IMG/VR virus record: IMGVR_UViG_3300017500_000008
Span: 1-39,903 of that record
Source: a virus
DNA length: 39,903 nucleotides
Reading direction: 5' to 3' (one strand)
The notes below the pieces were generated by a model that saw nothing but the letters and a program-made list of their open reading frames with translations, ran no database searches and had not been told where the DNA came from. Position 1 is the first letter of the stretch. The number at the start of each line of letters is the position of its first letter. The translations under genes and the position numbers were made by a program. Positions 11,639 through 39,903 of the stretch are shown here, in pieces.

Positions 11639-12175
11639 ATGCCACCGAAACTTAGCGCACCGATAGAAGACCAGTTACGTGAATACATTGTTAATAACAT
11701 CCGCCCGAGTGAGATAGAAGGCTATGACCCCACACAATCGGATACCACCGCCAGCGACTTCATCTTAGTCACGTCAGACAACGATAACTACGGCGATTAC
11801 TACCCGCTGATATACATTAGTAACAACGCGGGTACAAGCGTTCCCGGCGGTGGGGATACCAATATTACCAGCATCCAAGGCGACGGTTCAGGTAATAATC
11901 AGCGAGCGCAGTACACGCCGACAATCCAATGCCAAGCGGTCGAAAACGGGCCATACCGTAATGACACGGCCTATAACCAACTTGCATTTGAGTTATATCA
12001 AGAGGTGAAATTCCAACTCAAAGAGGCCAGCGCGTCAGACTTTACCGACTTTAGTTCAGTTGGCGAGTTGGAACCGGCTGACATAGACCGTAGCAGTGAC
12101 GAACAGGATAGTTCAACCGAGACGTGGGCGCAGTACGCGGGTACTGTTCCGATAGAAGTTCAATTCACACCATGA
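11639..12175 (+). CDS. Tail terminator/tail completion candidate
   Basis: 178 residues. The N-terminus has IEDQLREYIVNNIRPSEIEG, and the middle is beta-rich with ITSIQGDGSGNNQRAQYTPT. It then has YNQLAFELYQEVKFQLKE, a long helix typical of tail-terminator proteins, and ends in PIEVQF. It immediately precedes and overlaps (ATGA) the tail tube gene, the usual place for the protein that caps the tube. Assignment is positional plus fold pattern. Confidence 0.72.
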   Translation: MPPKLSAPIEDQLREYIVNNIRPSEIEGYDPTQSDTTASDFILVTSDNDNYGDYYPLIYISNNAGTSVPGGGDTNITSIQGDGSGNNQRAQYTPTIQCQAVENGPYRNDTAYNQLAFELYQEVKFQLKEASASDFTDFSSVGELEPADIDRSSDEQDSSTETWAQYAGTVPIEVQFTP

Positions 12176-13413
12176 CAACTGTAGAAAGCGCACTTCAAGA
12201 CCACCGTATCGAATATGCACAAGAACCCTCCGAAGGCGAATTTCCCACAGACCCGGACTGGGAAGTGTTGACGGACTACCTTGATGAACTTACCTTTACG
12301 CCCGGCGCTGGGCGTGAAGCGATTAGCGTGGTCGGGCAAGGCGACGTGAAGGATATGTTCCGTGGCGCGGAGGAACCCGAGGTTTCCACGAACTATTACA
12401 AGCAGCAGGGGTTTGTTGACTCAGGCGGCAGTGTGAACTATCCGGGTGGGCGACCGCTCACCTACGATTATAGTTGTGACCTACAGAGCTTCAATATCGT
12501 AGTGCGGCGTGAGACTGATTGCAACGGTAACTTTGACAATGGCTTTCGAGAGTACATCGTTATCCGTGGTGCCAAGCCAACCGAGGTAACGAATCCCGGC
12601 GACCCGTCCGAAGCAAATCCGATTATTGAAGAACTCACATGGACGGTTCAGAAAGGCCGCTCCTATGTGATTCACCAACCCGATTCAAGCACCACGCTTG
12701 ATATTACGAACGACGGTGACGCTGACGTTGACGTGACTATCGAAGACGAAGGCGCGGCTACCAGTGAGACTATCACCGTTGCGGCAAACTCAACTGTCAC
12801 CACGGTCGAATCCTACAGTGACGTTGACGTTATCTTTGCTGAATCCGACCATGACGGCGACATTACGGTGACGAACGGAAGTGGGACGAACGTGCTTGAT
12901 GAGGCTACGCAGTTGGCCGGAAGCGACACAGACGGTGTAGAATCCGACCGAGGCATCACACCACTCGGCTCCGGTTCACATGGTTCTGCTATTGGCACCG
13001 ACCCGTCAGATTATCAGTTCATCGGTGTTGACCAAATCAATTGGCAGGGGAGTAGCCTCTCCGACCGTATTCACGCCCTTGACCTTACCGTGTCACTTGA
13101 AACCTCACGCGAACCGACGAACGGAACCCGTCGCTCACCGATTGACATTGGTACGCGAACGGTTGAAATTGAAGCCGACACTGCCGGGCCGTATGAATCG
13201 GCTAGTCGCATTGCCGAACAGTTCCACAACGAGAGTGGTGACTTTGTGTATAGTTACCCCGACAATGACGTGACGGTGAACAACGCCGAAATCACCGACG
13301 CGCCGGATTACACACGCACTGCCGGCGACACCAATTACATCCCAAGCACAACGTGGCAAGGGAAGACGGACAGTGACGCAAGCGCGGTATCAGTCACCTA
13401 TACGGGAGCCTAA
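12172..13413 (+). CDS. Major tail (tube) protein with Ig-like insertion
   Basis: 413 residues from ATG 12172, coupled to the upstream gene. It begins with a tube-like beta region (FTPGAGREAISVVGQGDVKD, then NYYKQQGFVDSGGSVNYPGG). Residues about 185-255 form a Val/Thr/Asp-rich beta sandwich insert (TTLDITNDGDADVDVTIEDE, SETITVAANSTVTTVESYSD), as in surface Ig-like domains of tail tubes. The tube fold then resumes (IHALDLTVSLETSREPTNGT). It is followed by the G/GT chaperone and tape measure, the canonical order. Confidence 0.82.
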   Translation: MTTVESALQDHRIEYAQEPSEGEFPTDPDWEVLTDYLDELTFTPGAGREAISVVGQGDVKDMFRGAEEPEVSTNYYKQQGFVDSGGSVNYPGGRPLTYDYSCDLQSFNIVVRRETDCNGNFDNGFREYIVIRGAKPTEVTNPGDPSEANPIIEELTWTVQKGRSYVIHQPDSSTTLDITNDGDADVDVTIEDEGAATSETITVAANSTVTTVESYSDVDVIFAESDHDGDITVTNGSGTNVLDEATQLAGSDTDGVESDRGITPLGSGSHGSAIGTDPSDYQFIGVDQINWQGSSLSDRIHALDLTVSLETSREPTNGTRRSPIDIGTRTVEIEADTAGPYESASRIAEQFHNESGDFVYSYPDNDVTVNNAEITDAPDYTRTAGDTNYIPSTTWQGKTDSDASAVSVTYTGA

Positions 13414-13416
13414 CAC

Positions 13417-13851
13417 ATGAGTGACTACGGGCAAGACCTTATCGACCGTGGCGTAAAGCCCATTGAAGGCACATGGGAATTTGACGAGCAAGAAAACGCC
13501 TTAGACGTTGAACCGATTAGTTACCCAGATTGGAAACTCATTCAACAGTACGCCGCTTTATCAGCACGCATTGATTCATTGGACGGTGATGACGTAGATG
13601 AATCTGATATTGAAGACGTACAAGAGGCAGCCGAACGACTCGGTGACTTTAGTTGGGAAAGCGATGGTGAAGAGGTTGACTGGATTGTAACGGCGATTGA
13701 AAACAATCTAGTAAAGCCGGATGTTGACCCGCGTTCTGACCCGTTACCGATTACTACCGCAATTATCCAAGGCATGATTGAGGCGTGGCAAGAGTCGCCA
13801 CGGGTAGCCGAAGCCAAGGATGAAATGCCGATTGATAAGGGAAACGGGTAG
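13417..13851 (+). CDS. Tail assembly chaperone, short form (gpG-like)
   Basis: 144 residues, acidic, no signal: WKLIQQYAALSARIDSLDGD, ERLGDFSWESDGEEVDW, ITTAIIQGMIEAWQESPR. Position between tail tube and tape measure is that of lambda gpG, which coats the tape measure during tail assembly. The gene ends GATAAGGGAAACGGGTAG. The heptamer GGGAAAC in the correct phase two codons before the stop allows a minority of ribosomes to slip -1 and make the longer GT form listed separately. Confidence 0.88.
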   Translation: MSDYGQDLIDRGVKPIEGTWEFDEQENALDVEPISYPDWKLIQQYAALSARIDSLDGDDVDESDIEDVQEAAERLGDFSWESDGEEVDWIVTAIENNLVKPDVDPRSDPLPITTAIIQGMIEAWQESPRVAEAKDEMPIDKGNG

Positions 13852-14090
13852 ACCTACCCGACAGAGCACAGCAAGCACTCAGCAAGAAAACCGTTGTCAA
13901 AGAATGGGGTATCAATCCGTGGGAGATGCACAAACTCACAGTGCGTGACCTTCAAGACATACGGTTAGCTGAACACGCAGAAGCGTATATCAAACAAGAG
14001 CAACGTGAACGACAGGGCGGTGCCCAAAGCGGTAGCATAACCAGAAAAAACTATGACACAAACAAAAGCCGACAAGAGGCGTTTCAATAA
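13417..14090 (+). CDS. Tail assembly chaperone, frameshifted long form (gpGT-like, 224 aa)
   Basis: Predicted product of a -1 shift at 13839-13845. 143 frame-0 codons are followed by 81 codons in the -1 frame (from CGG at 13845) with no stop until TAA at 14088-14090, which overlaps the tape-measure ATG (TAATG). The added T region reads RVDLPDRAQQALSKK then WGINPWEMHKLTVRDLQDI and EHAEAYIKQEQRERQ, a basic/helical segment expected to bind the tape measure. No independent start codon with a plausible ribosome site was seen for this stretch, and it is otherwise unexplained. Mechanism inferred from lambda G/GT; sequence evidence is direct. Confidence 0.85.
13839..13845 (+). promoter_or_regulatory. 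Programmed -1 ribosomal frameshift site (GGGAAAC)
   Basis: G GGA AAC in frame with the short chaperone (codons GGA 13840-13842, AAC 13843-13845) fits X XXY YYZ exactly. Slipping back gives GGG AAA with acceptable pairing. The frame-0 stop TAG follows at 13849-13851. Confidence 0.87.
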
Positions 14091-15829
14091 TGGCTACATT
14101 TGATGAATTGAGCATCAATATCGGCGCAGATGTGGCCGATGCTATGGTCGGACTCACAAGCGTTGAAAGTGAGTTAGATAATGTAGGTGGTGAGGCTCTT
14201 ACCACCGCTCAAGCTATGGGCCGTTTAGCAAGCCAAACCGAACAACTCGGCGATCAAATGACGCGAACCACTGTTAAAGTGGGCGCGGCTAGTGCGGCAA
14301 TTGCTGGTGCAGGAGCAGCCGCCTCAAGCACAGCCATTGGCTTTCAAAGTCTTGGAGCTGCTAGTAGCACTGTTTTACTCCCCGCGCTTGCCGCACTGTC
14401 AACAACACTTGCCCCACTCGCGGCGACACTCACAGGCTTAGCGTCGGCAGCCGGAGCCGTGGCCGGTGCGTTCGGGCTTGTCGTTGGTAGTGGTTTGATT
14501 GCGTTTGGAGAAGAGCGTGGGAAGCAAAACGAAGAACGCTTGGCACAAGTTAAAGCCCGCATTGAGGGGTTAGAACAGTTACGCGATGAGCAAGGCAAAT
14601 TGACTGAGGAACAAGAAAAAAGCCTTGAAAACTTAAAAGAGCAAAAAGACGAATTAGAGGAGGTAACCGGTGTTGCGGGTGGGTTAAAAGATGCCTTTGC
14701 CGACCTTCGAGCTGAACTTACGCCGATTATTGTTAGCTTCGGTCAAGAGTTTACCCCGCTAATTGAAGATGCACTTGACGCACTCCCAGACTTAGCCGAG
14801 AATGTCTTATCGGCTACGGGCGATCTAACAACATTCCGTGAGTCGCTTCGTAACTTTGGGCAAGCCGCATTTAACGTTATTCCAGAGATCACGGAAGGGA
14901 TGTTTGACCTCGCTCGAAACGCGCTTCCCGTCGTGATTAATACGTTCCAGTGGCTTGAACGGAACGCGGGCGGTATCTTTGATGCAATCCTACGTACAAC
15001 GCGAGCTATCGCGCCTGTGCTCTTGGATTTTGGCCGTGCAATCGCTAATATTGCACCAACACTCAACAGTATCGGGGTAACTGTCCTCAAAACCGTTGTA
15101 CCGGCTCTTAGTGATTTTCTTGGGACTGTTAACAAGTTACTCCAAGGCGATATTCAAGGTGGCTTGGTTGAACCAATTAAAGGGGTTATCAATGATGTAG
15201 TGACGTTCTTGGATAGCGAAGCCGCACAAACGCAAATTGATAAAGCCTCAAGTGCTTTGTTTGGTGCGCTTGCAACAGCATTAAATAACACGTCGGAAAG
15301 TGATATTGCAGGCGTTAGTGGTGGTTTAGGTAGTGCTCTCACAAAAGCAGTGTCAAACTTGAGTGAGAATTTTGCCGAATCGGGGCTTGCAACAGAACTT
15401 GGGATACTCGTTGGTGATATTATTAACGTCGTTGGCAAGCAACTCCGAAAGGCGTCAAATGATGAAGAGTTCCAAAAGGAAATAGCCGCTATCGGTGGTA
15501 ATATTGGCGGTGCTCTTGCCGATGGTATTATAGCCGCAACAAAACAATCGCTCACCGACTTTGAAGTGACTGATTTATTCGGTGGTGTTGGTTTCGCTCT
15601 TGAAGGGGTTGAAACATCGGACGACTCAACGCAACAGACAGTGCAAACAATCCCGCAAAATCCTAAAAGCTCAGTTGGTGTTGGACAAAGCCAAAACGTC
15701 ACCGTCGTCAACCGCTTTGAAGGCGACTCGGGGATGCTTGAAGAGTTTATCAAACAAAAATCCGGTGAGGCAATCACCGAGCAAGAGCTAGCCGCAATCC
15801 GAGGCACTGGAGGGACGCAAAGACCGTGA
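14090..15829 (+). CDS. Tail tape measure protein
   Basis: 579 residues. The N-terminus starts ATFDELSINIGADVADAMVG. A long Ala/Gly-rich hydrophobic region runs about 65-140, then a charged coiled coil at about 140-193 (EERLAQVKARIEGLEQLRDE), then further helical repeats with membrane-like stretches to the C-terminus. The composition and its place after G/GT identify the ruler that sets tail length and reaches the host membrane. At roughly 1.5 Angstrom per residue it predicts a tail of about 85-90 nm, short to medium for a siphovirus. The stop overlaps the next start (GTGA). Confidence 0.9.
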   Translation: MATFDELSINIGADVADAMVGLTSVESELDNVGGEALTTAQAMGRLASQTEQLGDQMTRTTVKVGAASAAIAGAGAAASSTAIGFQSLGAASSTVLLPALAALSTTLAPLAATLTGLASAAGAVAGAFGLVVGSGLIAFGEERGKQNEERLAQVKARIEGLEQLRDEQGKLTEEQEKSLENLKEQKDELEEVTGVAGGLKDAFADLRAELTPIIVSFGQEFTPLIEDALDALPDLAENVLSATGDLTTFRESLRNFGQAAFNVIPEITEGMFDLARNALPVVINTFQWLERNAGGIFDAILRTTRAIAPVLLDFGRAIANIAPTLNSIGVTVLKTVVPALSDFLGTVNKLLQGDIQGGLVEPIKGVINDVVTFLDSEAAQTQIDKASSALFGALATALNNTSESDIAGVSGGLGSALTKAVSNLSENFAESGLATELGILVGDIINVVGKQLRKASNDEEFQKEIAAIGGNIGGALADGIIAATKQSLTDFEVTDLFGGVGFALEGVETSDDSTQQTVQTIPQNPKSSVGVGQSQNVTVVNRFEGDSGMLEEFIKQKSGEAITEQELAAIRGTGGTQRP

Positions 15830-39382: not shown

Positions 39383-39903
39383 ATGAGCACAGCCGAATCC
39401 GACGCCGAAGCCACAATCAAGCAGTTATTCCGTGGCCCGCGTAGTGAACGCGTCAAGCCGCTGTATGGCTACGAGCCATTCGACTACCAATGTGACTTGT
39501 TGGACTACAACGCCGGTCAGAACGTCACACAGACGGCTGTCAAGCCCGGCAGACAAGTCGGCAAGACCACGGTGGGGGGAACGATAGCCGCCGATGAGTT
39601 CCTAACCAATTCCGATGTAATGATCCTCGGGCCATTTGAAGACACCGTGAGCGAAATGATGGAAGCGTTCAAGAATCAGATTGCTCACGCCCGCCAAACA
39701 GTCGCCGGCAGTGACGTATCACTCACGCTTGAGACAGATAACGAAATGGAATACGAAAGCGTCAGTGGTGGGCGCGTTCGGGCAAAGACAGTCGGTACGA
39801 AAGGCACGCAAATCCGGGGCAAGAATCCGAACGTTGTACTCGTGGACGAAGCCGCGTATATCAAAGATAGCATTTTCACCGAGGTAATTGAACCGTTTTT
39901 CAG
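39383..39903 (+). CDS. terL: Terminase large subunit, N-terminal part (gene continues at position 1)
   Basis: The first 140 codons plus the repeated 99 bp. MSTAESDAEATIKQLFRG leads to YEPFDYQCDLLDYNAGQNV and then the Walker A variant KPGRQVGKTT (residues 54-63), typical of terminase ATPases. VMILGPFEDTVSEMMEAF follows, and Walker B appears in the repeated end. The gene is truncated only by the window edge. Position 39803 starts codon 141, which takes its third base from position 1, so the frames join exactly with the 1-964 segment. Likely leaderless, from the acttagta element. Confidence 0.96.
   Translation, partial: MSTAESDAEATIKQLFRGPRSERVKPLYGYEPFDYQCDLLDYNAGQNVTQTAVKPGRQVGKTTVGGTIAADEFLTNSDVMILGPFEDTVSEMMEAFKNQIAHARQTVAGSDVSLTLETDNEMEYESVSGGRVRAKTVGTKGTQIRGKNPNVVLVDEAAYIKDSIFTEVIEPFF
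39805..39903. repeat. Terminal direct repeat, right copy (circularisation overlap)
   Basis: Identical to bases 1-99; see the left copy. The non-redundant circle is 39,804 bp. Confidence 0.97.

Follow-up and report, generated by a model that had tools for sequence, protein, structure and literature searches.

The virus record IMGVR_UViG_3300017500_000008 contains two overlapping open reading frames between a presumed tail gene and a tape-measure gene, the layout of a G/GT pair. We analyzed positions 1–39,903 of this record as one stretch of 39,903 nucleotides, hereafter the window, which has a GC content of 51% and looks complete. Positions 1–99 are repeated at 39805–39903 as a direct terminal repeat of 99 bases, indicating that the contig closed as a circle and that the genome is probably complete. 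The proteins encoded in the window are very acidic (pI about 4.1) and in this respect resemble those of haloarchaea. Together with relatives that infect Halorubrum, this very acidic proteome supports an archaeal host and backs the original prediction that the DNA comes from an archaeal virus.

Gene layout and slippery site

All features of the locus lie on the plus strand. The presumed major tail (tube) protein gene spans 12172..13413, with its ATG at 12172, and is followed by G (13417..13851), an open reading frame whose 144-residue frame-0 product is the presumed tail assembly chaperone and which has homologues at the same position in related genomes. The frame-0 codons at the end of G read AAG GGA AAC GGG TAG and place the slippery heptamer G GGA AAC (13839..13845) in exact X XXY YYZ phase, with one sense codon (GGG) separating it from the frame-0 stop TAG (13849..13851). 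Past a −1 slip at this site, the T part (13845..14090) is open for 81 codons and ends with a TAA at 14088-14090 that overlaps the ATG of the tape-measure gene at 14090 (TAATG); the predicted G–T fusion has 224 residues, with its junction at N143–R144. Our reanalysis confirmed the position and phase of the heptamer as originally predicted, as well as the 81-codon −1 frame and its TAATG overlap with the tape-measure start.

The tape-measure gene (14090..15829) was named by profile match: its 579-residue product matches PHROG 167 (tail length tape measure) with an E value of 4.6e-8 and is 38% identical to the HHTV-1 tape measure over about 217 residues. The tube, by comparison, was named by position alone, and that name is presumptive; the protein matches PHROG 34360, a family of unknown function, and profile comparison with annotated haloviral tail tubes detected no similarity. 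G and T matched no Pfam family, gave no convincing PHROG match, and matched no known phage tail chaperone family in the libraries searched, and AlphaFold gave no reliable model of G (pLDDT of 49 with 7 sequences and 42 with 4 sequences). We infer the chaperone role from gene order and architecture rather than from sequence homology. Thus, the proposed lambda-like order of tube, G/GT, and tape measure stands with respect to the tape measure, whereas the names of the tube and chaperone derive from position.

We also estimated how often such a site would be expected by chance. Across 9,785 in-phase positions in 39 forward open reading frames, strict sites of the form X XXA AAN or X XXT TTN occurred five times, the site in G was the sole in-phase GGGAAAC, and the probability of any strict site within the last 10 codons of one open reading frame was about 0.5%. 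A −1 frame open for at least 80 codons past the stop was found for 14 of these 39 open reading frames, the G frame included. As long open −1 frames are common in this genome, the length of T carries little weight alone, and it is the combination of features and their conservation that is informative.

Conservation of the heptamer in related genomes

Relatives were recruited via the presumed tail-tube protein from a phage collection, which yielded HATV-3 (L003) and Hardycor1 (L004), and from six viral contigs (L005, L006, L007, L008, L015, and L016), giving a homologue set of nine genomes including the window. The identity of the presumed tail protein to that of the window was 33% for HATV-3, 32% for Hardycor1, 74% for L005, 61% for L006, 38% for L007, 33% for L008, 30% for L015, and 31% for L016. 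Because HATV-3 and L008 are closely related, the set represents about eight independent lineages. A nucleotide search of the phage collection detected no relatives of the window, a search of phages and viral contigs with G alone detected none, and two scans of genome contigs detected no proviral relatives.

All nine genomes keep the heptamer in phase near the G stop, as GGGAAAC in the window, HATV-3, L006, L007, and L008 and as GGGAAAT in Hardycor1, L005, L015, and L016. The other G proteins are 17–52% identical to that of the window, and the alignment is invariant at the start Met, at one other Gly, and at the Gly-Asn encoded by the heptamer; besides this Gly-Asn, no feature of the C-terminus is constant. 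Given x-Gly-Asn, a chance choice of codons would yield a heptamer site in about 3% of cases per genome. No member of the set lacks the slippery site, as a homologue with an independent T start might, and this outcome favors frameshifting within the homologue family. The distance from the heptamer to the G stop is 0, 1, or 5 sense codons: the stop follows AAC immediately in HATV-3, L006, and L008, comes one codon later in the window, L005, and L007, and lies five codons past the heptamer in the Hardycor1 group. In L015 and L016, the −1 frame terminates a few bases upstream of the tape-measure start; in the window and the six other genomes, it overlaps that start in a TAATG.

Two further observations concern individual members of the set. 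In the HATV-3 record (L003, 6206-6774), gp30 and gp31 are annotated as separate hypothetical proteins, with the fusion missed and T truncated at its 5′ end. The G homologue of L016 (7233-7778) carries an inserted CxxCxGxG zinc-finger-like pair that is absent from the other G proteins and that weakly matches the DnaJ central domain (E value of 4e-4, below the cut-off).

Entry into T and selection on its frame

In the window and in L005, a −1-frame stop lies directly 5′ of the heptamer, and T can therefore be entered only at or just past the heptamer. With one sense codon between the heptamer and the G stop, the change of frame is confined to about ten bases, at the heptamer. The T frames of L005 and L007 contain no ATG, GTG, or TTG anywhere.

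The selection analysis covered the window, L005, and L006, together with the HATV-3/L008 pair. In the −1 frame, pN/pS for T was 0.25 between the window and L005, 0.31 between the window and L006, and 0.42 between L005 and L006, compared to 1.0–2.0 for control frames of the same DNA; pS values of 0.75–0.84 place synonymous sites near saturation and make these ratios approximate, although the frames differ clearly. Between the window and L005, 49 of the 81 differences in T fall at codon position 3. Only in the −1 frame does T show purifying selection; its alignment across the relatives is highly variable.

Frameshifting compared to other explanations

At the level of sequence, the joining of G and T by −1 frameshifting is strongly supported by an in-phase slippery site conserved in nine genomes, by selection on T in the −1 frame, and by the lack of an alternative start in two relatives. 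We assign a probability of roughly 0.93 to the reading that a −1 slip at GGGAAAC yields a tail chaperone pair of the lambda type from this locus. Most ribosomes would translate G and stop at TAG, whereas a minority, with tRNA-Gly on GGA and tRNA-Asn on AAC, would slip back by one base, from G GGA AAC to GGG AAA, and read the T part to produce the GT fusion. The slipping ribosome would be that of the haloarchaeal host. If the proteins behave as in lambda, the tape-measure protein would be coated by G, and T would bring in the subunits of the tail tube. Points against this reading are that the usual stimulators were not found (see below) and that HHTV-1, which has a related tape measure, lacks a −1 site and appears to use a +1 shift.

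A variant compatible with tandem slippage is that mainly the P-site tRNA-Asn slips, with the stop codon in the A site. The stops found directly after AAC or one codon later in six genomes (HATV-3, L006, and L008; the window, L005, and L007) fit this variant, and no other stimulator is visible. GGG would then be dispensable, however, and yet it is kept in 9/9 genomes, and the stop of the Hardycor1 group is five codons away; we therefore regard this variant as rather unlikely.

It is very improbable that T is a separate gene with its own start, reached by reinitiation or coupling past the G stop. Although codon 28 of T in the window is an ATG and the HATV-3 and Hardycor1 records annotate a separate small open reading frame at T, start codons are missing from T in L005 and L007, the conservation of T begins close behind the heptamer, and the first T ATG of the window sits within a conserved core (WGINPWE-M) that is preceded by conserved residues. 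Transcriptional slippage, in which the polymerase rather than the ribosome joins the frames, would yield an identical fusion, but the conserved phase and the two-codon pattern fit tandem tRNA slippage, and polymerase slippage usually calls for longer runs than the three G and three A found here, making this explanation a very poor candidate as well. An assembly or sequencing error that split one gene by an indel, such that a single-base change in length would fuse both frames, is refuted because all nine genomes, which come from isolates and separate metagenomes, are split in the same way at this heptamer. Thus, as far as sequence comparison can decide, independent initiation of T and sequencing error are effectively excluded.

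Candidate stimulators

To look for elements that might promote the −1 slip, we folded the 50 and 80 bases downstream of the heptamer in the nine sequences (pseudoknot-free folds) and obtained z scores of −1.7 to +1.3 relative to dinucleotide shuffles. Shine–Dalgarno-like elements were irregular in presence and spacing in these sequences, with no consistent example. Neither of the elements that mark a stimulated −1 frameshift, a 3′ structure 5–9 nt downstream or a 5′ Shine–Dalgarno-like element, was thus a feature of the nine sequences. The window has a non-conserved hairpin of 5 bp (GGGTA-GACC-TACCC) immediately adjacent to the heptamer, leaving no spacer, and a stop at 0–1 codons past the heptamer is common but not universal. 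With an invariant heptamer, two members without an alternative start, and no obvious stimulator, the nine-genome set provides a clean comparative case.

Relation to known frameshift sites

Two papers (PMC5009743, PMC8211752) describe tail chaperone frameshifting as widely conserved in long-tailed phages and infer −1 G/GT shifting for HVTV-1, HCTV-1, HCTV-2, and HCTV-5 and +1 shifting for HSTV-2. A likely frameshift at G_GGA_AAT has been reported for Hardycor1 (PMC7911831), and public database entries for other haloviruses carry annotations of putative −1 and −2 frameshifts. We re-found the HCTV-1 and HCTV-2 sites in sequence. Both the frameshift and the heptamer are therefore already published for haloarchaeal viruses, and the window adds another case rather than the first. 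As to proof of frameshifting in haloarchaea, our literature search returned only predictions for haloviruses; the demonstrated archaeal case that we found is a Sulfolobus fucosidase (PMC8211752).

Among the closest parallels, the HCTV-1 chaperone genes DNAM5_122/123, also from a virus of a haloarchaeal host, carry a G_GGA_AAC identical to that of the window (Sencilo 2013, as cited in PMC5009743), but HCTV-1 belongs to the Druskaviridae, places its stop nine sense codons past the site, and has extra genes between T and the tape measure. Hardycor1 (HrrHc1_110/115), a Halorubrum virus of the Graaviviridae, shares with the window the upstream tail gene, an in-phase G GGA AAT, and a −1 T placed before the tape measure; it differs in having AAT rather than AAC, in having five sense codons rather than one before the stop, and in a G protein of about 24% identity. 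HATV-3 (Pyrstoviridae), with gp30 and a partly annotated T, has GGGAAAC in phase and TAATG on the tape measure like the window, but its stop lies directly behind the heptamer and its record splits G from a partial T with no frameshift annotated.

The slippery site of lambda is G GGA AAG, with a Lys codon in place of the window's Asn codon. Like the window, the lambda G/GT system has an X XXY YYZ site near the 3′ end of G, and its genes run from the tube through G and a −1-frame T to the tape measure (Xu, Hendrix and Duda 2004). Decoding at the site had been described as bacterial-type, a label that did not hold up: the second codon is Asn (AAC or AAT) in 9/9 genomes, which is mammalian-like and not AAG. 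In PMC5009743, sites with Asn as the second codon are grouped with mammalian sites; AAG is favored in E. coli. The GGGAAAY set contrasts with bacterial AAG sites and lends itself readily to reporter or proteomic testing. A possible, though doubtful, generalization is that viruses of this lineage rely solely on G_GGA_AAY, with Asn as the A-site codon and with no downstream structure or Shine–Dalgarno-like element, which would suggest that haloarchaeal ribosomes or tRNAs slip efficiently and unstimulated on a eukaryote-like heptamer. Asn tRNA without queuosine at position 34 is expected in archaea and is a possible contributor.

Probable shift modes in other haloviruses

A survey of haloviruses revealed two modes at the same place, a −1 heptamer or a +1 arrangement. 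The latter, with TTT-CGC or TTT-CGT near the end of G, was found in HSTV-2 (L018, 15475-15515), HSTV-4 (L029, 11145-11162), HRTV-13 (L033, 11343-11360), HRTV-28 (L026, 13080-13101), HFTV1 (L024, 15150-15188), and HRTV-29 (L035, 5850-5877). These sequences fit a +1 shift at a motif of the influenza PA-X type. TTT-CGC has been published for the HF1 group (PMC7230728), and the extension past that group to other families is new as far as we found in the literature. In BJ1, we looked for a G/T pair and did not identify one.

For HRTV-29 gp63 (L035, 5392-6071), the record specifies a −1 shift. Its +1 product is homologous to the HFTV1 +1 product (63% over 38 residues, E value of 4e-16), whereas the −1 products do not match, and the −1 annotation is therefore probably wrong. 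A −1 site is missing from HHTV-1 genes 33/34 (L002, 4583-5498), where gene 34 occupies the +1 frame and TTT-CCA precedes the stop; an ATG soon past the stop makes an independent start possible for gene 34. Given the related tape measure of HHTV-1, the direction of the shift may have switched among relatives of the window. In phiCh1 (L032, 5214-5786), an unannotated in-phase G GGA AAT lies 15 codons before the ORF20 stop, and the −1 frame is open to 5786, just upstream of ORF21.
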